Below are positions 3,921-42,190 of a DNA stretch of 42,308 nucleotides, piece after piece. This DNA comes from Gammaproteobacteria bacterium (GTDB lineage: Bacteria; Pseudomonadota; Gammaproteobacteria; S012-40). The notes under the pieces were generated by a model, which did not search any database, was not told the DNA's origin, and saw only the letters and a program-made list of their open reading frames with translations. A program made the translations under genes and the position numbers. The stretch lies in the NCBI GenBank assembly GCA_027021445.1, contig JALUUH010000079.1:1-42308 (forward strand). Direction: 5' to 3'. The stretch's first letter is position 1; each line of letters starts with the position of its first letter.

Positions 3921-4358
3921 TCACCATGACGTGGACAACTTAAGATTCAATACCTTCACTGAATCATCTACTTCGCTACGCATAATAAATCCCATAGCCT
4001 GAGGCTGTTGGGCCACCCATTTTTTGATCACAACATCGCGTCCAATCACTTCAGGCGGCATGCCTTTCCCAGTAAAAATTAAACGTGACCAGTAAGATTT
4101 CAACTTCGCTTCACTCCGCCCAATAATACGATCAGAAAAAAGCCTGCGACTTTCTGTTCCTGTTGGCTGGTCACCAGGAATAGCTTTTTTTCCATCAGGA
4201 AACGTTTTTTTCTTTCCCAGATACATTTTCTGCACATCATCTACAGAAATTTCAGTTAACGGATTGGAAGGATGAACTATAATCACTAGGTCTGCGTGAC
4301 TTATGCTCACATAAAAAAATGATAAAGCGATCAGAATTGACTTTGAAAATTGTTTCAT
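3921..4358 (-). CDS. Small PstS-like periplasmic binding protein
   Basis: This 145-residue protein carries an N-terminal signal peptide (residues 1-22, ending SHA) and a single PBP-like domain. Visible features are VIIVHPSNPLTEISVDDVQKMYLGK near the mature N-terminus and QQPQAMGFIMRSEV near the end, both typical of phosphate ABC transporter substrate-binding-like proteins. At half the length of a true PstS and without ABC transporter genes nearby, it is unlikely to be a classical uptake component. AAGGAT precedes the ATG. It is the last gene of a receptor-barrel-binding protein set and has a paralogue at 34949. A ligand-presenting role is inferred. Confidence 0.75.
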   Translation of the reverse strand: MKQFSKSILIALSFFYVSISHADLVIIVHPSNPLTEISVDDVQKMYLGKKKTFPDGKKAIPGDQPTGTESRRLFSDRIIGRSEAKLKSYWSRLIFTGKGMPPEVIGRDVVIKKWVAQQPQAMGFIMRSEVDDSVKVLNLKLSTSW

Positions 4359-4372
4359 TTTAAATATCCTTT

Positions 4373-5518
4373 TTAAAAAACAGTTGTCAAAGCCATTTGC
4401 AGCAATGACGCATTGTTAGCCGAATCACGTTTATTGTTATAGCGAGTGAACTCCGCTTTTAACGCAGTCGACTCACCCATTTCCCAGCGAACACCGAACG
4501 TATAAAACGCGCTTTTGTCCTCCACCATAGCAAAGGCTTCTTGTGTACCCATTACTAACTCATCCAACGGCGTGCCAGTATTTTGCGGAACGCTACTAAG
4601 AATACTACGGTCAGCGACATTTTCATCCTCACCATAGGTAAAATGAAATAATACTGGACCAAAGTGTTTACCTACGCTCACATAAAAAGAATCTTGGTCG
4701 GGTAAAATATTATTACCCGGTTGGACTCGTGTAATTTCAGCCACAAGCAAATAATTTTTAGAATCGAACGTAATGCCTAAACCAGCATAATCAGCAAGAT
4801 CATTTAAGGCTTCCAGTTTATCAGCAACGTCTTGATATGGCGTCGCACGCCAGCCATCATAAAGCGACTGCATTGGGGTAACGGGAACCGTTAAATTTGT
4901 TCTTGAATAGCTAGATCTTAGCGTTAACCATTTGTGACTAATAGACCAGGAGGCCGCGAAAAAATTGCTAAATTCAAGATTTTCTTCTAGGCCAAGATGT
5001 ATTGCTGGGTCACGATTTCGGCCGTAAGTAACGTGTAAGGTCGAATCCAATTTTCCAATCGAACTATTGTAAACTGAACCAATGCCATCAAACACATCAA
5101 ACACCAGACTATAAACCCCACTAGGTGGTTTTATCCAATGATAAGCATAAGACACATCCAGGAAATCGGAATATATATAAAAAGGTGCACGTTGACGACC
5201 AAATAATAGTCGCCAATTATCGGTTACTTCGTAACTTAAAAAAGCCCATTCCGTATCCAACTTCCAGGAATCCACACCTCGAGCAAGAAACTGAGTCGTT
5301 GCCGACCAACCTTTTCCCAGTTCACTCGACGCCTGTATACCAAAAAGTGAACTTTTATCAGCGCTTGGTTTATCATCATACCCTTCTAGCACTTGACTTT
5401 TTCCCGCAGTAAATCCTCCCGCGATCGTTGCAAATCCCGAAAGTTTAATATCACCCGCGATTAGATTCAACGGCGATAATATTGCCGCTATCACTAATAT
5501 GCTGCTAATTTGTTTCAT
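4373..5518 (-). CDS. Outer-membrane beta-barrel (porin-like) protein
   Basis: This 381-residue protein starts at an ATG preceded by GGGAG; the ORF track begins 12 codons earlier. A signal peptide (MKQISSILVIAAILSPLNLIAG) is followed by alternating hydrophobic and polar strands with many aromatic residues, and the chain ends in the aromatic MALTTVF typical of barrels inserted by the Bam machinery. Motifs such as WRLLFGRQRAPFYIYSDFLDVSY resemble small-molecule porins. It sits 14 bases upstream of the PstS-like gene and 158 bases downstream of the chemotaxis receptor, on the same strand. The substrate is unknown. Confidence 0.72.
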   Translation of the reverse strand: MKQISSILVIAAILSPLNLIAGDIKLSGFATIAGGFTAGKSQVLEGYDDKPSADKSSLFGIQASSELGKGWSATTQFLARGVDSWKLDTEWAFLSYEVTDNWRLLFGRQRAPFYIYSDFLDVSYAYHWIKPPSGVYSLVFDVFDGIGSVYNSSIGKLDSTLHVTYGRNRDPAIHLGLEENLEFSNFFAASWSISHKWLTLRSSYSRTNLTVPVTPMQSLYDGWRATPYQDVADKLEALNDLADYAGLGITFDSKNYLLVAEITRVQPGNNILPDQDSFYVSVGKHFGPVLFHFTYGEDENVADRSILSSVPQNTGTPLDELVMGTQEAFAMVEDKSAFYTFGVRWEMGESTALKAEFTRYNNKRDSANNASLLQMALTTVF

Positions 5519-5676
5519 CTGTATCTCCCATCCTTTATTAGCAAAGTTCATCAATTTTTACGTAAACATAGAAAGCCATATACGGTAAAGATATTCCTTA
5601 CTATTTACGCCTAACAATGCTTCATTACTTCGTCCACAATTCATTATTTTTTCAAACCCATCGAGAATGAAACAAC

Positions 5677-7275
5677 TTAAAACAATTCAATCACCTCTTC
5701 ATTTTCTGGTTTTAGTTGCTTAGATTTATCGGAAAACCCTCCTACCAATGCTTCGAGTTGGATGGAGTATTGTGACAAGTCACCATTATCCGATATATTC
5801 TGTTTGGCCATCGCCGCTGCTTCATACACACTTTTTTCGATTCGTATAATAGCTTCTTGAATATCTGCAGCCATCTGCCGTTGCTGGTTCGCAAGGTCTG
5901 CGCTAACCGCGCTACTGCTATGAATATCCCCAATGCTATTGGCAATGTGCTTAAAGGTCTCACCTGCCTGCCTTATTTGCTGCTGACTTTGAACCGCCTT
6001 ATTTTCGTTGTACTCCATACTGCCTACCGCCTGATCGCTACCCGATTTGATGGTTCCTATTAAACCGCGAATTTCCTTGGTAGCATCCGTAGTACGTCGC
6101 GAAAGATTACGCACTTCGTCCGCCACCACCGCAAAACCTCTACCATGCTCACCAGCACGAGCAGCCTCAATAGCCGCATTCAATGCCAGCAAATTCGTTT
6201 GCTCGGCGATGCCTACAATCATATCCAACACCTTGCTAATACTGGTATTCTTTTCTGCTAAGTCGCTAACAATGATTCTTGTCTCCGCTACATTGTTTTT
6301 TAACTCATCCATACTGCTAACCGCGATTTCTATCACCTCACGCCCCTCATCTGCTTGCTGTTGGATCTGTTTTGCCTGCTGGGCAACATTCCCCACTTCA
6401 TTGCTTACATGGGCACTCGTTTTCGCCAATTGCTCAATATTTTGGGTAAATCCGGCAATTGCAGATGCCTGGCTTTCTACCGAGGAGCTAGTGGTCTCTG
6501 TAATTTTCTGTGCTCTTATACTACTGCTGGATAGACCCTGGGAAACACTAAGAATCTGTTCCACCATGTCTTTCAGTTTTTTTACAAACTGATTAAAAGA
6601 TTGCGCAACCTGGGACACTTCGTCTTTGCCTTCTGCTGGCAAAACAACATTAAAATCCACCTCGCCCTGTACCAGACCATGCATGGTATCCTTCAGGGAA
6701 ATCAGTTGTTTCATCTGGTGATTTAGATACCAGCGATTCAAAATAGCAATCAGCATAATTCCCAACAAGCCACCCATAATCATCTCGTAAACCAGGATGT
6801 ATGCTTCTTTTTCTAGCGACCCAGCATCAATACCGAGTTCCAACCGTCCGTAACTCTCATCACCCACGATGATGTCTGAATTCACATCAAAAACACCATC
6901 GTTATGTGTACCTATGCTATTTTCATCACTTAAAAAGGGCTGCTGCAGCAAATTATTTTTGTCCTGACTTACTAGAACGTCACCCTTTTCATCCAAAATT
7001 CGTACAAATAAAATATCTTTCCCTTCCAATAAAATCGATGCGAAGGCATCTAAAATAACGATCTCACGTTTGATAATCGAAGAAGAAATAGCCGCAGCGC
7101 TTACCAAAACCAAGGTCTGGCTACGCTCCTTCATCTCTTTATGATGAGCATCAAGATAAGCCATTAGCATATAACCCAGCAGCAACACCAGTACAACGCA
7201 CATCAGCACAATATTGCCTATTAGGATTTTCCCCCCGAGAGACAAAAACGACTTCTTATGCCAAAATTTCAGCAT
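5677..7275 (-). CDS. Methyl-accepting chemotaxis protein
   Basis: This 532-residue receptor has a transmembrane segment at about residues 20-40 and a periplasmic domain at 41-160 with a Cache-like strand pair ([14 protein letters not shown]). A second transmembrane segment lies at about 161-183, HAMP at 184-236, and a long signalling coiled coil follows. The invariant hairpin tip [34 protein letters not shown] is at 356-389. It should relay ligand state to CheA/CheW. There is no C-terminal NWETF-type pentapeptide. The barrel and PstS-like genes downstream suggest that it senses a ligand crossing that barrel, which is inference. Confidence 0.93.
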
Positions 7276-34024: not shown

Positions 34025-34792
34025 TTATCCAGTGTGCTTCCTTTCTGTTGTTTTTAAGACTCTTTCCCCATTATGAGTAATGAAAGACCAGATACGCTCA
34101 TCGTGTTTTTTAATCCCATCAAGTAACTCTTCTACACTCGCCATGCAAGGCTGCCGCATACCAAAACAATCCACCATCGCTCCCACTGGGGTAAATTTAA
34201 TTCCACTCCGTGCTAATAAGTTAATGAGCTGTGGCTCCATTAGCGCAAACACATGCGTTACACCTGACTCGGTTGCCATATTCATTATTGCTTTAAACAA
34301 TCCCAATGTAATTTGCGAACAATGTCTTTTCTCTCTATGCCTTTCTGTAAATGATAGATTAGGGCTAATGCCATGGGCATTATTTTTCTCCTCTATACGT
34401 CGACGAAAATCCTTTGACACGGCAAGTCTTGATATTTCACCTTTAACTCGTGACGACACCTGCCACTGCTGGTCCCTGCTTTTTCGTCGCAATATATGAA
34501 ATCGCTCAGTGGGTAAAATTTTTTCAGTGACTACATTGCTTGATTTTGGGTTAATAATGAGCCGCACAGTTGCGACGCTAATTCTTGTTTTTTTATGAGT
34601 GAGTAGAGCATGTAAAGATCTCTGATCAAATTCGTCTGATTCTTTTTCTGCTAAATAAAGAGAGGAGTCAAATATATGTTGTTCGTCACAAAATACTTGG
34701 TAACGCAAAGCTTGACACTTTTCAACAAGCCGTGCTGAATTTCCAATTTCGGTTTCAAAATAGTTATCAAATTGATTGAAGCTCATAGTCAT
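34025..34792 (-). CDS. PEP-CTERM/exosortase system-associated acyltransferase
   Basis: This 255-residue protein starts at ATG 34792, where GGTGGA precedes it; the track adds 17 codons. It has an autoinducer-synthase-like N-terminal acyltransferase fold (ARLVEKCQALRYQVFCDEQHIFD) and VATVRLIINP. It then has EISRLAVSKDFRRRIEEKN and GLFKAIMNMATESGVTHVFALMEPQLINLLARSGIKFTPVGAMVDCFGMRQP. This is the pattern of the acyltransferase found with PEP-CTERM/exosortase systems. Its substrate is unproven. No exosortase or PEP-CTERM protein is visible in the window. It is divergent from the second PstS-like module. Confidence 0.82.
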   Translation of the reverse strand: MTMSFNQFDNYFETEIGNSARLVEKCQALRYQVFCDEQHIFDSSLYLAEKESDEFDQRSLHALLTHKKTRISVATVRLIINPKSSNVVTEKILPTERFHILRRKSRDQQWQVSSRVKGEISRLAVSKDFRRRIEEKNNAHGISPNLSFTERHREKRHCSQITLGLFKAIMNMATESGVTHVFALMEPQLINLLARSGIKFTPVGAMVDCFGMRQPCMASVEELLDGIKKHDERIWSFITHNGERVLKTTERKHTG

Positions 34793-34948: not shown

Positions 34949-35389
34949 ATGCATATTTTCAAGAATATTTATCACAATTTATTCAAAGGATTTCTTTTCC
35001 TAATATTATGCTTTGCTTCTACAGCTAGCCATTCCGAAATTATTATTGGAGTTCACAACAACAATTTAACTTCCATTAATAAAAGCACTTTACGCGCCGT
35101 TTTCACAATGCGGCTTAATCGCTGGGAGAACGGGCAAAAAATCACCGTACTAATGCTCGATCAAAATAGCAAAATCCACCGTGAATTTTGCGTTCAAAAA
35201 CTCGGCGTATTTCCTTATCAATTACAACGTATCCTGGATAAACGGGTTTTTTCAGGGAAAAGCCAAGCACCGATAAACGTCTCAAACATGGAAGAAATGA
35301 TTACTAAATTGCTAAATACGCCGGGCGCCATTGGCTATATTAGCGAGGAGTTTGTAAATGATATTCCAGCAGATATTACGACATTTTAA
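34949..35389 (+). CDS. Small PstS-like periplasmic binding protein (second copy)
   Basis: This 146-residue protein has a signal peptide (GFLFLILCFASTASHS) and one PBP-like domain. The pattern IIIGVHNNNLTSINKSTLRAVFTMRLNRWENGQKI parallels VIIVHPSNPLTEISVDDVQKMYLGKKKTFPDGKKA of the protein at 3921, and PGAIGYI matches its PQAMGFI. The two are distant paralogues. No ABC transporter is adjacent. It is the first gene of a set with a barrel and a GGDEF-EAL protein; five bases separate its stop from the barrel ATG. There is no obvious ribosome-binding site at this ATG. Confidence 0.72.
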   Translation: MHIFKNIYHNLFKGFLFLILCFASTASHSEIIIGVHNNNLTSINKSTLRAVFTMRLNRWENGQKITVLMLDQNSKIHREFCVQKLGVFPYQLQRILDKRVFSGKSQAPINVSNMEEMITKLLNTPGAIGYISEEFVNDIPADITTF

Positions 35390-35393
35390 AATA

Positions 35394-36593
35394 ATGAAAA
35401 CACTAATAGCACTAACTATTTACGCATTGTTTTCAAGTATGGCATTTGCAATAAACCTGTCAAAAAATATTCAACTTCATGGCTTCGCGACTCAAGGGTA
35501 TATCAAAACTGATAACTACAATTTTTTTGGTGAAACCTCGAGAGTAAAAGGCGATATCGATTTTCGTGAACTAGGGATTAACGCTTCATATCGTGCCTTT
35601 TCAAATTTTCATATTGCAACTCAACTCATTTCTCGCGAGGCAGGCGCAGTAGATAACTCAACGATCCAGATTGATTATGCGCTCGCTGACCTACAGATAA
35701 CATCTAGAAATCAGTATAACTTCGGTCTGCGCGTGGGCCGTGTAAAGAATCCTCTCGGTTTTTACAATGAAACACGAGATGTCGCTTTTACACGAAACAG
35801 TATATTTTTACCACAGTCCATTTATTTTGATCGCGTGAGAAAACTTGCCTTATCTGCTGATGGACTGCATATTTACGGGCAAAAACGCCACAAATTCGGT
35901 GACTTTGATTTTCAATTCGGCATTGGTTATCCGCGGGTTGATAATGAGACCGAGATAGCGATATTCAAAACTGATCGCGATGGCTTAATGAAGTCCAACC
36001 TAAGCTTAATAGCGCACACCAGCTATAGCTTAAATGCGGGCAATCAAAAAATAGCATTGAGCTGGGTACGATTATCCGCAGACTACATGAGTACCGGCGC
36101 GGAAAATGCTGTTGCTTCTAATCTAAAAAATGCAAACTTCTCTTTCACTCCTATTATATTGTCGGCACTTTCGACACATGGTGACTTCACTATTTCCAGT
36201 GAATATGCACTACGATTTTTTCAATTTAATAATATGGCACCATATGTGCCTGAAGACATTGCAGACCTAACAGGAGAAAGCTATTACATTCAGATGCAAT
36301 ATAGACTAACTCCTTTATTTGAAGTTTTTCTACGCTACGACATCATTTACTTAGATAGGAATGACAAGGATGGCCTTAAATACGAAGCAAAAGGATACGG
36401 GAACCGCATTGAGCAATTTGCTAAAGATGCAACAGCAGGCATTGCCTTTCACATAAATAGCGCATGGCTACTGAGAGCTGAATATCATCACATAGAAGGA
36501 ACCGCTTGGCTACCAGTCCAAGATAATCCAGAAATGTCAAATAATCAAAAAAACTGGCAGCTATTTTCAGTATTAGTATCCTATAAATTTTAA
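35394..36593 (+). CDS. Outer-membrane beta-barrel (porin-like) protein (second copy)
   Basis: This 399-residue protein begins at ATG 35394 with a clean signal peptide (MKTLIALTIYALFSSMAFA); the track begins 12 codons earlier inside the previous gene. The body has alternating strands with aromatic girdles (IQLHGFATQGYIKTDNYNFFG; YNFGLRVGRVKNPLGFYNETRDVAFTRNSIFLPQSIYFD) and ends in the Phe of FSVLVSYKF, the usual barrel-insertion signal. The GRVKNPLGFYNETRD block matches GRQRAPFYIYSDFLD of the barrel at 4373 in position. The substrate is unknown. Confidence 0.75.
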   Translation: MKTLIALTIYALFSSMAFAINLSKNIQLHGFATQGYIKTDNYNFFGETSRVKGDIDFRELGINASYRAFSNFHIATQLISREAGAVDNSTIQIDYALADLQITSRNQYNFGLRVGRVKNPLGFYNETRDVAFTRNSIFLPQSIYFDRVRKLALSADGLHIYGQKRHKFGDFDFQFGIGYPRVDNETEIAIFKTDRDGLMKSNLSLIAHTSYSLNAGNQKIALSWVRLSADYMSTGAENAVASNLKNANFSFTPIILSALSTHGDFTISSEYALRFFQFNNMAPYVPEDIADLTGESYYIQMQYRLTPLFEVFLRYDIIYLDRNDKDGLKYEAKGYGNRIEQFAKDATAGIAFHINSAWLLRAEYHHIEGTAWLPVQDNPEMSNNQKNWQLFSVLVSYKF

Positions 36594-36616
36594 TCAACAA
36601 ACAACTCGAGTTAAAC

Positions 36617-39505
36617 ATGGATTTAGGCAAATCTAAAGTTAGAACCAGATTTTTTATAAGTTTAAAATGGAAAGTTATCGGTACAATAATATTGTTTACG
36701 ATTTCTCTAAACGCGTTTTTTTACATCAATGCTGAACGAAAACACGAACAACAGTCTTTAGAAAAACGCCAGGCTATTAAACTAAAAAATGAAACCGCTT
36801 TTGTTGAGCTATCAAACTTATCTATGCTTAGGTTACAACAATATGCCGAAATGATTGTTTCTTTCAAAGAAATCAAGTCAACCATTAACCAACACAACAT
36901 TGAAGAACTTACCCAAAACTTAACGACACTTTGGCCGGTCTTAGAGTTTAACCTAGAAATGGACTTGGTTTCTTTTTTTGATAGCCAGAGCAATTTAATT
37001 TTTTCCAATAGTAGTGCATTAACTAAATCAAAAGAATGGAAAAACTTAATATTCAAAATTAGAAAGGTAAATTCCAACGGCAAACCGCAGTCCAGCGTGG
37101 TTTGTTCGGTGACCTGTCTGCATATCGTAATACTTCCTATACTTTCTGAGAACGGAGAATTTGGTGCAATTGTTCTCGGTGCTTCGATTGCAGAAACCTT
37201 GTATAGTTTCTCCCGGTCACAAACACTTGATGTTGGGATTTTAATAGACAGCGCAAACAATGCAAAAACAGATTTAAGCAACTGGAATCATGACATATCA
37301 CTAATCACCAATAATAACGAAACCTCTAAGCTATTGCGTTATTTGAATCGCAATTACCGACTCGATCAAATAATTAATTCAATCGAAAACTTCAATTTTG
37401 ATGACCGACTTTATTCGATAAATCTTCTCCCGCTCAATCGAATATCCAACAATGATAATGGCTATATTCTTATGGTGGAAGATGTCACTCAAGAACATCT
37501 TAATACTCTAAGCATTCTCAATGAAAACAGAACATTTACTTTTGTCACTACGGCCTTTACTGCATTAATTCTATTATTAATTCTCTGGCCTGCACTGCGA
37601 CGAGTAAAAAACATCACCAATGCATTACCACTCATTGCCCAGACATCTTATGAACAAGCAGATAATATTTTAACCTCAAAAAAACCCAATCGATATCACT
37701 CAGATGAAATCGACACTTTAGAGATTGTTACCGTTCAACTATCTCAACAACTCCGTACACTGTACGAAAAAATCGATAGTCGTACAAAATTACTTTTTAA
37801 AAAAATGGGAGAATTAAAAAACGAAAAGGAATTTATTCAAAAACTTTTTGACACAATGCCTTCTATTCTAATCACCTTGGACCACAACCTTAATATCACT
37901 TCTATTAATAAACACGGCCTTAGTTTATTAGAAAAAGAAGAGGGAAACATTCTTGAGACTAATTTTCAAAAAACATTCAGCTCCTTGAGTGATACCGCAG
38001 AGAAGGATGCGCTGAGAGAAATAGCATCGGGCCTGAGAGAACATTTTGTTATTGAAAAATCATTAAATAACTCCAAATCAAAACCTCGAACCTTAAACTG
38101 GATACATTCTCGTTTACATGGAAAAAATGGGCATAATGCGATTATATTGTCGGTTGGAACCGATGTCACTGCAAGAAAAGAAGCTGAAACCAAGATAACC
38201 TGGCTGGCTAATCACGACCCTCTAACCGGCTTATATAATCGTTACTATTTCGGAGAAATGTTTGAACGAACACTAAAACTTAGCCAACGATACAAAACCA
38301 AGGGCGCTTTAATGTTTTTGGATCTTGATAACTTTAAATACGTAAACGATACCCAAGGTCATTTTGCCGGCGACACCCTCATAAAATCAGTCAGCTCTGT
38401 TTTATCTTCAGTAACTCGGGAAACCGATATTGTCGCACGCATAGGGGGGGATGAATTCGCTATTGTCATACCTGATATTGATGAAACAGGCGCAACTGCG
38501 TTCGCTAGAAAAATTAATACCAAAATTGGCGCGATAAAACTCGCTGCATTTGGAGGCAATTTGCGTACAACAACGAGCATTGGTATTGCACTCTTTCCGG
38601 AACACGGCAACGACGTCGATGATTTGCTATCTAAAGCGGATATTGCAATGTATCAGGCAAAAGAAGGTGGACGTAGTGCCTGGCATTTATTTTCCTCCGA
38701 TGAAAAAGTCCGCGCAAAACTTGAAAGCCAAATCACCTGGAAAGGAAGAATTGAAGATTCATTAAAATTTGATAAATTCAAACTTCTATACCAACCAATC
38801 ATTGATATCCGAACACATACAATATCTCATTACGAAGTTTTACTTAGAATGATTGGCCCTGACAAAAAACTTATATCTCCAACCCCCTTCATCCAAGTCG
38901 CAGAAAAAACCGGGCTTATACGTGAACTCGATCAAATGGTAATCTATAAAGCAGTACAGAAACTTATTTCATTAAATGAACAGGGCCAGCACATCTCGCT
39001 TGCCATCAATTTGTCTGCCCACAGTCTAACGAATAATAATATTTATATACTGCTCAAAGAGCTATTAAACGAAGGCTCGATTGATAGCAATCAATTGATC
39101 TTTGAAATCACTGAAACGGCCATGCTCGAAAAAATTTCTGAAGCCTCGCTACTCATTGAAAACATTCAATCGTTAGGTTGTCGGTTTGCACTCGATGATT
39201 TTGGCGTAGGTTTTTCTTCATTCTATTACTTAAAGAAATTGCCTATCGAGTATATAAAAATCGATGGTGCCTTCATTCGCAACCTTGAGCACAATAAGGA
39301 TGACCAAGCGATGGTTCGCGCCATTACTGAAGTTGCCTACACCTTAGGTAAACGAACAATTGCTGAATTTGTAGAAAATGAAAACACCTTAAAACTACTA
39401 AAAGACTTTCAGGTGGACTTCGCTCAAGGCTATTATATTGGAAAACCTGAAGAAACCTTCAGCATGGAATTTGAACATTCCCCACCTAAATTAGAAATTG
39501 TCTAG
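36617..39505 (+). CDS. Transmembrane PAS-GGDEF-EAL cyclic-di-GMP enzyme
   Basis: This 962-residue protein has a transmembrane helix near residues 20-37 and a periplasmic Cache-like sensor to about 305 (DLVSFFDSQSNLIFSN; a Cys pair in VVCSVTC). A second helix lies near 308-328, and a PAS domain at about 415-525. The GGDEF at 610-614 has an RETD inhibitory site five residues before it. The phosphodiesterase domain has EVL (E740) in place of EAL and DDFGVG at 860-865, with metal-binding residues otherwise present. It may make and degrade c-di-GMP. It follows the barrel gene by 23 bases. Confidence 0.93.
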   Translation: MDLGKSKVRTRFFISLKWKVIGTIILFTISLNAFFYINAERKHEQQSLEKRQAIKLKNETAFVELSNLSMLRLQQYAEMIVSFKEIKSTINQHNIEELTQNLTTLWPVLEFNLEMDLVSFFDSQSNLIFSNSSALTKSKEWKNLIFKIRKVNSNGKPQSSVVCSVTCLHIVILPILSENGEFGAIVLGASIAETLYSFSRSQTLDVGILIDSANNAKTDLSNWNHDISLITNNNETSKLLRYLNRNYRLDQIINSIENFNFDDRLYSINLLPLNRISNNDNGYILMVEDVTQEHLNTLSILNENRTFTFVTTAFTALILLLILWPALRRVKNITNALPLIAQTSYEQADNILTSKKPNRYHSDEIDTLEIVTVQLSQQLRTLYEKIDSRTKLLFKKMGELKNEKEFIQKLFDTMPSILITLDHNLNITSINKHGLSLLEKEEGNILETNFQKTFSSLSDTAEKDALREIASGLREHFVIEKSLNNSKSKPRTLNWIHSRLHGKNGHNAIILSVGTDVTARKEAETKITWLANHDPLTGLYNRYYFGEMFERTLKLSQRYKTKGALMFLDLDNFKYVNDTQGHFAGDTLIKSVSSVLSSVTRETDIVARIGGDEFAIVIPDIDETGATAFARKINTKIGAIKLAAFGGNLRTTTSIGIALFPEHGNDVDDLLSKADIAMYQAKEGGRSAWHLFSSDEKVRAKLESQITWKGRIEDSLKFDKFKLLYQPIIDIRTHTISHYEVLLRMIGPDKKLISPTPFIQVAEKTGLIRELDQMVIYKAVQKLISLNEQGQHISLAINLSAHSLTNNNIYILLKELLNEGSIDSNQLIFEITETAMLEKISEASLLIENIQSLGCRFALDDFGVGFSSFYYLKKLPIEYIKIDGAFIRNLEHNKDDQAMVRAITEVAYTLGKRTIAEFVENENTLKLLKDFQVDFAQGYYIGKPEETFSMEFEHSPPKLEIV

Positions 39506-39569: not shown

Positions 39570-40127
39570 ATGCCCTCGATGCTGTCTTTAATTCATAAAT
39601 ATATTCAATTTGCCACCCTAGTCAATCAAGTTATTGGTAAATCCATCCCTTGGCTATGCTTACTGATGGTATTAATAACCTTTACGGTTGTTGTGCTTAG
39701 ATATGCTTTTAATTTTGGCAATATTGCTTTGCAAGAATCTATAATCTACATGCATGCTTCGGTTTTTATGTTAGCAGCTGCTTACACATTAAATCGTGAG
39801 CAACATGTTCGCGTGGACATCTTCTATCATAAATTTACCAAACATCGAAAAGCCTGGGTTAATATTGTGGGCACACTCTTGTTCCTACTCCCGTTATCTG
39901 GATTTATTTTATGGAGCAGCTCAGAATATGTAATCACGTCTTGGACACTGCGAGAAGGCTCACGCGAAGCCGGAGGCTTGCCTTATGTCTATCTACTCAA
40001 AAGCAATATTCTCGCATTCGCAATCTTGTTAATAATTCAGGGCTTATCCGACCTTTTTAAAAACATCTTAATTATCTTAAACCTAGACTCTCCAGTTGAC
40101 CGCTCTCGCCAAGTGGTAACTCACTGA
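39570..40127 (+). CDS. dctQ: TRAP transporter small permease DctQ
   Basis: This 185-residue inner-membrane protein has four hydrophobic helices and the family motifs LRYAFNFGNIALQESIIYMHASVFMLAAAYTLNREQHVRVDIFYH and GREAGGLPYVYLLK-like SREAGGLPYVYLLKS. It pairs with DctM to import organic acids or other anions with a periplasmic DctP protein. The last residues (LNLDSPVDRSRQVVTH) are encoded by the dispersed repeat, not by ancestral dctQ sequence. A TATAAT box lies in the short gap upstream. Confidence 0.92.
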   Translation: MPSMLSLIHKYIQFATLVNQVIGKSIPWLCLLMVLITFTVVVLRYAFNFGNIALQESIIYMHASVFMLAAAYTLNREQHVRVDIFYHKFTKHRKAWVNIVGTLLFLLPLSGFILWSSSEYVITSWTLREGSREAGGLPYVYLLKSNILAFAILLIIQGLSDLFKNILIILNLDSPVDRSRQVVTH

Positions 40128-40162
40128 AATGGTAAAATTAACGATGCGTATTACTGCGGATT
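40076..40162. repeat. Short dispersed repeat, copy 2
   Basis: ACCTAGACTCTCCAGTTGAC, GGTAACTCACTGAAAT and ACTGCGGATT match the copy at 33944-34017. A 13-base insert lies near the right end and the left inverted end is degraded. It overlaps the 3' end of dctQ and supplies its TGA stop. It fills most of the 128-base gap between dctQ and dctM, genes that usually abut or overlap. Confidence 0.65.
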
Positions 40163-40255
40163 CCCGATTAAAGTTTGAAAACGATCAATGCACCACTCCA
40201 ACATCGCCACAAAATACTCCCTAAACCTTAAAATCAATCAACAGACAAAAAAGCT

Positions 40256-41644
40256 ATGCTCGAAGAATTCATGCCCCTCATTATGTTCGCCACTGTCTGT
40301 GGAGTCCTGTTACTCGGCTATCCCGTTGCCTTTACCCTAGCAGGCACGTCCCTCGCATTTGCTTGGCTTGGCTGGGAAATGGAGATATTTGACGAAGACT
40401 TTCTCTTTGCCTTACCTAGTCGTTTATACGGAATCATGGTTAACCAAATTCTAATTGCCGTACCCTTGTTTGTATTTATGGGTGTCTTGCTGGAAAAATC
40501 AAAAATTGCCGAAAATCTTCTTGAAAACATGGGCAAGCTATTCGGCAAGATGCGGGGAGGCCTAGGTATCTCGGTAACACTTGTCGGCATGTTGCTGGCC
40601 GCCAGCACCGGCATTGTTGGCGCTACTGTCGTCACGATGGGCTTACTTGCTTTGCCAACGATGTTACGGCGCGGTTATGATCCTGCTATTTCCGCCGGAA
40701 CTATTTGCGCATCTGGAACCCTAGGGCAAATTATCCCACCTTCGATTATTCTGGTATTGCTTGGCGATGTTTTGTCATCCGCTTATCAGCAAGCACAACT
40801 CGATATGGGAATTTTTTCACCAGAAACCCTATCTGTAGGCGATTTATTTACCGGAGCACTCATACCTGGCCTACTACTTGTGGCCTTATACATTACTTAT
40901 TTACTTATCATAGCCATTATCAAACCAACAGCTATGCCTGCGTTGGCGGACACTGAATATGATTCTAATAACGACTTTAAAATCTATGACTTATTAAAGG
41001 GCTTAGCCCCACCGCTACTACTGATCTTTTTCGTATTGGGGTCAATTTTAGCTGGAATAGCAACTCCCACCGAAGCCGCCTCTGTCGGAGCAATGGGCGC
41101 TCTATTGCTCACATTTATCAACAAGCAATTAACCAAAAAAATCTTAACTGAAGTCGTTCAGCAAACCACCTTAGTAAGCAGCATGGTTTTCATGATCCTA
41201 ATTGGCGCATCGGTTTTTTCTCTTGTATTTAGAGGATTCGGAGGAGATGAACTCGTTCATGAATTACTTAATGATCTTCCAGGGGAAACTTTTGGGGCCA
41301 TAGTTGTTGTCATGTTAATCATGTTTCTGCTTGGATTCGTTCTCGATTTTATTGAAATCACTTTTGTGGTAGTCCCTATTGTTGGCCCTGTTTTATTAGC
41401 GATGGGCGTAGACCCTGTGTGGTTAGGGATTATGATTGCACTGAATTTGCAAACCTCTTTTTTAACACCTCCCTTTGGCTTTGCATTATTTTATTTGCGT
41501 GGCGTTGCAAAAAAATCGTTGACGACACTGCAGATATATAAAGGCGTTACACCTTTTATCATTATTCAATTATTCGTTTTAGCAGTCATTGGATTTTGGC
41601 CTGAATTAGCAACATGGTTGCCAAGCGTGATGAACGGAGAATAA
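40256..41644 (+). CDS. dctM: TRAP transporter large permease DctM
   Basis: This 462-residue polytopic membrane protein has the DctM motifs LLLGYPVAFTLAGTSL, VPLFVFMGVLLEKSKIAENLLENMGKLFGKMRGGLGISVTLVGMLLAASTGIVGATVVTMG, GTLGQIIPPSIILVLLGD and the late LQTSFLTPPFGFALFYLRGV. It forms the transport channel with DctQ. A long cytosolic or periplasmic loop (DTEYDSNNDFKIYD) lies mid-protein. No dctP is in the window on either side, so the binding protein must be encoded elsewhere or beyond the edge. Confidence 0.96.
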   Translation: MLEEFMPLIMFATVCGVLLLGYPVAFTLAGTSLAFAWLGWEMEIFDEDFLFALPSRLYGIMVNQILIAVPLFVFMGVLLEKSKIAENLLENMGKLFGKMRGGLGISVTLVGMLLAASTGIVGATVVTMGLLALPTMLRRGYDPAISAGTICASGTLGQIIPPSIILVLLGDVLSSAYQQAQLDMGIFSPETLSVGDLFTGALIPGLLLVALYITYLLIIAIIKPTAMPALADTEYDSNNDFKIYDLLKGLAPPLLLIFFVLGSILAGIATPTEAASVGAMGALLLTFINKQLTKKILTEVVQQTTLVSSMVFMILIGASVFSLVFRGFGGDELVHELLNDLPGETFGAIVVVMLIMFLLGFVLDFIEITFVVVPIVGPVLLAMGVDPVWLGIMIALNLQTSFLTPPFGFALFYLRGVAKKSLTTLQIYKGVTPFIIIQLFVLAVIGFWPELATWLPSVMNGE

Positions 41645-41925: not shown

Positions 41926-42190
41926 AGACCACTATTAACACACATGATTGCTCATCAAAACATAGGCGTGAATATCACATCCACTTTTATCAGCTTGATC
42001 TTTAAGATGATCTAAATACAAGGGATAATCTTCGTCCGTGAAAAAACAAACCGCGCGATTATTCCCACGTTGGATTATATGCCAGGGTATTCCTGGTATT
42101 GAGATACGCACCCTGCGTGGTATTAATCATCTCTCACAATGCTGAAAACCCCCAGAATAATGCCTTAATCGTGACCTGTCCCCTATTTTT
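41913..42190. mobile_element. Degenerate RAYT/IS200-like element with inverted ends
   Basis: AATAGGGGACAGACC on the left and GACCTGTCCCCTATT on the right are inverted copies with two mismatches in 15. GGGGACAG borders of this type are common around REP-associated tyrosine transposase genes. The interior holds the N-terminal part of such a transposase on the minus strand. About 280 bases remain of an element usually near 1 kb. Confidence 0.65.
41935..42123 (-). pseudogene. N-terminal fragment of a REP-associated tyrosine transposase
   Basis: The minus-strand frame reads IPRRVRISIPGIPWHIIQRGNNRAVCFFTDEDYPLY and HLKDQADKSGCDIHAYVLMSNHVC, then TAA. This is the opening of a Y1/IS200-like RAYT protein. 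The expected ATG is ATA, and the frame stops right at the site where NHVH of the HUH motif and the catalytic Tyr half should follow. It is therefore dead twice over. Confidence 0.75.

Follow-up and report, generated by a model that had tools for sequence, protein, structure and literature searches.

In Vibrio cholerae, a porin, a periplasmic binding protein and a membrane diguanylate cyclase are encoded in one operon, VpvABC (PMC12456836; PMC8754643); in the model of this system, the porin imports a signal that is sensed by VpvB and VpvC, and vpvAB without vpvC is widespread, possibly as a free-standing sensing unit (PMC12456836). In the same species, the binding protein NspS drives the GGDEF-EAL protein MbaA (PMC8079147), and in Pseudomonas aeruginosa, PstS signals by contact to the chemoreceptor CtpL, in a 1:1 complex (PMC4926252). 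Given the precedents of PstS-CtpL and NspS-MbaA, a binding protein can drive either a methyl-accepting chemotaxis protein (MCP) or a GGDEF-EAL protein. Here, we analyze an operon at positions 34949-39505 of a gammaproteobacterial contig (JALUUH010000079.1, assembly GCA_027021445.1), the whole 42,308-nucleotide stretch of which is referred to as the window. The operon encodes a small half-PstS-like periplasmic protein (hereafter SBP; SBP1 and SBP2 are the two copies in the window), an outer-membrane barrel and a membrane GGDEF-EAL protein, i.e., an enzyme of cyclic di-GMP (c-di-GMP) turnover. An earlier note on this DNA had proposed that the barrel admits a ligand, which is captured by the small protein and read by the sensor; this sensing idea is already published as the VpvABC model (PMC12456836). 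The features of the operon are as follows (evidence in parentheses).

34949..35389, forward strand: SBP2, 146 aa, exported single-lobe PstS-like protein, mature form of about 117 aa (open reading frame (ORF) list, family profile; fold modelled on SBP1).
35394..36593, forward strand: barrel 2, outer-membrane barrel with signal peptide (ORF list, where the start is 35358; Pfam, family profile, spacing).
36617..39505, forward strand: membrane GGDEF-EAL protein, 962 aa (Pfam, motifs, spacing).
36734..37525, forward strand: periplasmic dCache_3 sensor part of the GGDEF-EAL gene (genome searches, SBP linkage).

This unit is real, tightly packed and conserved, with intergenic gaps of 4 bp between SBP2 and barrel 2 and 23 bp between barrel 2 and the GGDEF-EAL gene; all six ORFs that had been assigned to this and a second locus are present in the ORF list. 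In Pfam searches, the 962-aa protein contains dCache_3 (E 7e-23), PAS, GGDEF and EAL domains. Both the GGDEF and EAL domains look catalytically intact, because the motifs RETD (RxxD), GGDEF, EVL, DDFGVGFS (DDFGxGFS) and QGY are present.

The window unit resembles VpvABC in that adjoining genes for a barrel and a small periplasmic protein share an operon with a membrane c-di-GMP enzyme. It differs in the gene order (SBP-barrel-sensor), in the output, which is a GGDEF-EAL protein with dCache_3 in place of a diguanylate cyclase, in the adjoining acyltransferase gene, and in the use of MCPs and kinases by its relatives; membership in the VpvABC kind follows from the published description only. The terms methyl-accepting, chemoreceptor and histidine kinase are absent from the text of PMC12456836. 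Relative to VpvABC, and with respect to the open-access literature, the new elements are the GGDEF-EAL form, the plugging into chemoreceptors and kinases, the half-lobe anatomy, the dedicated sensor domains and the acyltransferase link. As in NspS-MbaA, a binding-protein gene adjoins the gene for a membrane GGDEF-EAL protein with a periplasmic domain, and the EVL motif is found in both; however, NspS is a polyamine-binding protein of the PotD type with no barrel partner, whereas the window encodes a single PstS-type lobe and a barrel. In PstS-CtpL, a PstS-fold protein feeds a receptor, as is proposed here, but the PstS that acts on CtpL is an entire phosphate-binding protein and belongs to an ABC transporter.

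We observed the gene order, homology and conservation of the unit, the linkage of its sensor domain and acyltransferase to the SBP, the single-lobe fold and the catalytic motifs, and we lean, with some reserve, toward a solute input that is transmitted by docking of the SBP on the sensor. The operon would then encode a VpvABC-like sensing unit spanning the envelope, in which the barrel either passes a small molecule across the outer membrane or positions the SBP beneath itself; the SBP, a single PstS lobe, would dock on the dCache_3 domain and relay the state of the input, and docking would alter the balance between synthesis and breakdown of c-di-GMP. The SBP and the barrel together may be an exchangeable front end, which elsewhere would feed chemoreceptors that carry a dedicated four-helix domain, histidine kinases or other c-di-GMP enzymes.

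The distribution of the pair was surveyed in 274 gammaproteobacterial genomes. A 41-row SBP profile gave matches in 98 of them at E 1e-4, which is an upper count, since the weakest matches, in open frames around 300 aa long, are probably ordinary PstS; SBP2 as a single query matched in 48 genomes, one of which (G115) gave ten matches. In the contigs of named genomes, SBP2 alone gave no match and the sequences of the 41-row alignment varied too much, but a closer 12-row alignment worked; a scan with one conserved peptide pattern yielded at least 573 relatives, and the best ones include Alteromonas, Thalassolituus, Cellvibrio, Shewanella, Moritella and Teredinibacter. A Salinivibrio match was rejected as a member, being a 279-aa protein outside the small family. 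Neighbors were called by a mechanical longest-ORF rule, which may err in GC-rich loci (L108, L112). In 68 of 80 cases, the SBP has a barrel no more than two genes away in the same run; a signaling gene is found at this distance for 32 of the 80 SBPs versus 23 of the 497 genes of these loci that served as controls (P 1.4e-16). Thus, as to conserved co-occurrence in other genomes, which the earlier note had set as its check, the SBP, barrel and sensor genes co-occur widely. Its further claim, different outputs on one input pair, is repeatedly borne out: the genes beside the pair encode GGDEF-EAL and GGDEF proteins, GGDEF followed by EAL, MCPs, histidine kinases, kinases with receiver domains, and a kinase followed by HD-GYP.

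SBP2 belongs to a clade of 31 SBPs (support 99/93), which mostly have the arrangement SBP-barrel-c-di-GMP enzyme; SBP1 lies outside this clade, and the remaining SBPs are mostly arranged as barrel-SBP, with or without an MCP. Among annotated examples, a porin-SBP pair with a convergent MCP occurs in Pseudoalteromonas, a protein annotated as hypothetical, an SBP and an EAL protein occur in that order in Caballeronia, and a Vibrio has the order kinase-SBP-barrel. A 437-kb Pseudomonas aeruginosa plasmid from a river isolate (NZ_CP093017.1, L216) carries an MCP-porin-SBP operon, so the chemotaxis version moves on accessory replicons. There are also loci with an SBP and a sensor but no barrel (L054, L064, L078). 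Several other arrangements were encountered: on a mobilizable 181-kb Vibrio plasmid (NZ_CP045341.1, L234), an SBP lies beside a 318-aa hypothetical protein, close to a gmtX gene; two related genomes (L086, L090) have tandem SBP genes and no barrel, with a third SBP and a module-type MCP domain about 13-15 kb away; and in L113, two very similar SBP-barrel pairs stand in direct tandem, probably through a recent duplication.

The linkage is also seen at the level of the periplasmic sensor domains. The dCache_3 domain of the window GGDEF-EAL protein has 21 relatives in the 274 genomes, and 17 of these have an SBP within 5 kb (two of the remaining four sit near a contig start); a four-helix MCP domain, for which the query was taken from L136, a relative of the second locus, has 24 relatives, 19 of which lie within 5 kb of an SBP. 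The chance of finding an SBP at this distance is about 0.2% per match. Two sensor-domain families are, hence, nearly restricted to SBP neighborhoods. The four-helix domain (L136:6636-7121, about 155 aa), which no Pfam model matches, is present on most module MCPs, 25 in number, and on one SBP-adjacent histidine kinase; because it is shared by MCPs and a kinase beside SBPs, the linkage tracks the periplasmic part rather than the output. AlphaFold predicts it to be a four-helix bundle (pLDDT 87.9), and the closest solved fold is the receptor domain of V. cholerae VC1313, a weak match (E 5e-3). In the GGDEF-EAL set, SBP, barrel and sensor domain co-diverge, with rho of 0.74-0.82 in a mirror-tree comparison that is uncorrected for species history.

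SBP1 and SBP2 belong to one profile family: an HMM seeded with SBP2 matches SBP1 at 3.9e-36, the family profile matches both at 1e-44 or better, and a profile grown from SBP2 matched 81 proteins, among them SBP1, in the retrieved loci. The motifs that the earlier note had described as common to the two proteins are present, except that SBP1 has FPDGKKAI, one residue longer than the FxxGxxI pattern. By profile, the family is related to PBP_like_2/PstS (PF12849, TIGR02136), although the window SBPs, with 18.1 and 13.7 bits, do not reach the curated PBP_like_2 cut-off of 27 bits. The AlphaFold model of SBP1 (62 sequences) is a confident alpha/beta domain with pLDDT of about 97 over the mature part. 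With this model, Foldseek ranks PstS-type phosphate-binding proteins highest, in alignments that cover roughly half of each such protein; for 4gd5 (243 residues), the rmsd is 2.0 A over 120 columns. In profile alignments, the SBP corresponds to 1twy residues 101-219 and 4gd5 residues 110-220, i.e., to the central lobe. PstS-type proteins bind their ligand between two lobes; this clamp is absent from the SBP, which has one lobe only (145 aa). At the positions of the Arg-x3-Ser-Gly-Thr phosphate motif of PstS, Arg is found in 0/79 members of the SBP family, Ser in 38/79 and Thr in 4/79, the Thr position being mostly V, L or I. Phosphate was dropped as a candidate ligand, because the PstS ligand residues are not kept. 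The name "PstS-like", given to the small protein at the outset, describes the fold correctly but misleads as to the function, as the ligand residues are lost. The most conserved stretch of the SBP1-type family, YWS-x3-F[ST]G-x-G-x-PP, is family-specific compared to PstS and is the best candidate for an interface.

The two barrels belong to one family as well, in agreement with the proposal that both SBPs neighbor a barrel: the profiles grown from barrel 1 and from barrel 2 each arrive at 78 proteins, and both match every barrel listed among the neighbors. In Pfam, Porin_4 passes for barrel 1, and Porin_O_P falls under its cut-off for barrel 2. The likely starts are 35394 and 5518, with the signal peptides MKTLIALTIYALFSSMAFA and MKQISSILVIAAILS, respectively. 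The barrel substrate cannot be read off, because matches of the barrel profile to solved structures are weak and C-terminal only (OmpA and OprO).

Divergent from SBP2, there is a gene that the earlier note overlooked, and that is a fourth conserved neighbor in the SBP2 clade.

34025..34792 (ORF listed from 34843), reverse strand: LuxI/FeeM-like acyltransferase of the TIGR03694 family, exosort_acyl (Pfam, TIGR03694 profile).

The product passes TIGR03694 with 195.5 bits (cut-off 111.95) and shows weak matches to the FeeM and autoinducer-synthase models; its listed start is 106 bp from SBP2. Of 30 SBP2-clade loci, 10, the window included, have a TIGR03694 gene at most 600 bp from the SBP, mostly in divergent orientation and in at least four taxonomic families; two further clade loci have it at about 4 kb. 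Outside the SBP2-clade list, this neighbor was found only in L065, the locus of another SBP match (G206). PMC4897644 and PMC7293339 tie the TIGR03694 family to N-acyl amino acid synthases, citing Craig et al. 2011; PMC4897644 describes the function of exosortase-linked N-acyl amino acids as unclear and mentions that a messenger role has been proposed. There is no report of a link between a TIGR03694 enzyme and a receptor-like module in the open-access literature examined. No exosortase was found among the ten window proteins scanned, and no exosortase search of this genome was made. Because the acyltransferase is conserved beside the SBP and its family is linked to N-acyl amino acids, a self-made acyl amino acid is a reasonable candidate signal; we tentatively regard such a product of the 34025-34792 enzyme as the best candidate for the SBP2 clade, at a probability well short of even, and the link is a lead rather than a result. 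In an autocrine version, the acyltransferase would make an N-acyl amino acid, which would be exported, perceived via the barrel, the half-PstS and dCache_3, and would thereby set c-di-GMP. That such a circuit exists, and that the half-PstS and barrel are an exchangeable outer-membrane-coupled half-receptor plugged many times into chemotaxis, phosphorelay and c-di-GMP outputs, is a bolder proposition that we consider rather doubtful.

Docking of the SBP on the sensor has to be weighed against other explanations. The SBP alone could capture a ligand admitted through the barrel, the loaded SBP being read by the sensor, like MBP by Tar. The fold is indeed that of a phosphate-binding protein lobe, but PstS-type proteins bind between two lobes; ligand capture by the small protein alone, as had been claimed, is doubtful because the SBP is the central lobe only and the phosphate-ligating Arg is missing in all 79 members, with mostly aliphatic residues in place of Thr. 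In spite of the precedents of PstS for CtpL (PMC4926252) and NspS for MbaA (PMC8079147), we consider this explanation unlikely. Alternatively, the barrel and the SBP could work as a pair in uptake, export or barrel gating, with a sensor that is only co-transcribed and senses the solute itself via dCache_3. The pair occurs without a sensor gene in many loci, and dCache domains are generally known to often bind ligands directly; however, the sensor-domain families are almost confined to SBP neighborhoods, and an SBP can accompany a sensor where there is no barrel, so that we find this alternative somewhat unlikely. Finally, the unit might monitor the outer membrane, with the SBP signaling the state or assembly of the barrel to the sensor, and no solute involved. 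The barrel and SBP are the most constant partners (68/80), and the SBP has no complete ligand site; yet, no lipobox was seen by eye in SBP1 or SBP2. We regard this explanation as quite improbable.

Several points also weigh against a solute input through docking. We infer the contacts, the entry of a solute and the ligand. The second lobe and most of the PstS ligand residues are missing in the SBP, and the single-lobe fold was modelled on SBP1, not on SBP2. Over half of the SBPs lack a signaling gene in their own run; the pair must, therefore, also work with distant partners or serve another purpose. No TIGR03694 gene lies within 600 bp in 20 of the 30 SBP2-clade loci and, conversely, 36 of the 44 TIGR03694 relatives in the surveyed genomes are not near an SBP; since only 8/44 are within 5 kb of one, the enzyme also functions elsewhere. 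Co-divergence in the MCP set is weak (rho 0.19, P 0.07 for SBP and sensor domain), and the mirror-tree comparison, with shared species history uncorrected for, is suggestive only.

The second locus, at 3921-7275, had been described as a paralogous module with motility as its output. Its features are as follows.

3921..4358, reverse strand: SBP1, 145 aa, SBP2 paralogue (ORF list, family profile; AlphaFold pLDDT 90.6, Foldseek).
4373..5518, reverse strand: barrel 1, 14 bp 5' of SBP1 (ORF list, where the start is 5554; Porin_4 1.7e-7, family profile).
5677..7275, reverse strand: chemoreceptor with HAMP and MCPsignal, 5' of barrel 1, unlikely to be the sensor dedicated to the pair (Pfam, domain searches).

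On the minus strand, the order is, thus, chemoreceptor (7275-5677), barrel 1 (5518-4373) and SBP1 (4358-3921). The two modules are paralogous in their SBPs and barrels, as the profiles show, but not in their sensors, where neither the outputs nor the periplasmic domains are related. Similarly, a Cache-like domain had been assigned to both sensors, which holds for the GGDEF-EAL protein (dCache_3) and is not shown for the MCP, the periplasmic part of which (about 120 aa) matched no Cache model in Pfam; it is homologous neither to the sensor domain of the GGDEF-EAL protein nor to the four-helix family of module MCPs. Besides the window, 0/32 relatives of this domain in the class and order samples lie near an SBP, and around the closest full-length relative (L227/L230), which comes from a sister genome belonging to the same family, neither an SBP nor a barrel is found within about 5 kb. 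Conservation, therefore, gives no support to a chemotaxis module at 3921-7275, nor to the MCP at 5677-7275 as the motility output of this pair. Close relatives of SBP1 (L134, L136, L137) have the order barrel-SBP-MCP with the dedicated four-helix domain; a sensor domain of this module type was not found elsewhere in this genome, which is 67% complete. At 3921-5518, the window has a second copy of the front end, the receptor of which is probably not the adjoining chemoreceptor. The chemoreceptor could still be the true receptor with a swapped sensor domain, as the order MCP-barrel-SBP and the 122-bp gap between the MCP and the listed start of the barrel resemble those of true MCP modules; given the absence of SBPs near its relatives, we hold this to be unlikely. 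A terminator scan found nothing between the MCP and barrel 1, and promoter-like matches there were not counted as evidence.

Around the operon at 34949-39505, some further genes were observed. As had been claimed, neither module contains ABC transporter genes; yet, genes of a tripartite ATP-independent periplasmic (TRAP) transporter, DctQ and DctM, trail the GGDEF-EAL gene at 39570-41644 on the same strand, 64 bp downstream. DctP was not found in the remainder of the contig, and TRAP genes of the DctQ/DctM type were not seen downstream of the sensors of relatives. Close to the contig end, a short ORF on the minus strand (41935-42111) resembles the N-terminus of a REP-associated (tyrosine) transposase.

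The input is unknown for most c-di-GMP enzymes and chemoreceptors, and the gene position of the SBP-barrel pair would mark an input route. If a solute input through SBP-sensor docking is correct, many orphan sensors of Gammaproteobacteria would acquire such a route, including receptors with a sensor domain unknown to Pfam, and the unit makes it possible to test by what route signals from the outer membrane reach a sensor in the inner membrane. The neighboring acyltransferase makes the question of the ligand directly testable; if the autocrine version were true, exosortase-linked acyl amino acids would gain a receptor.

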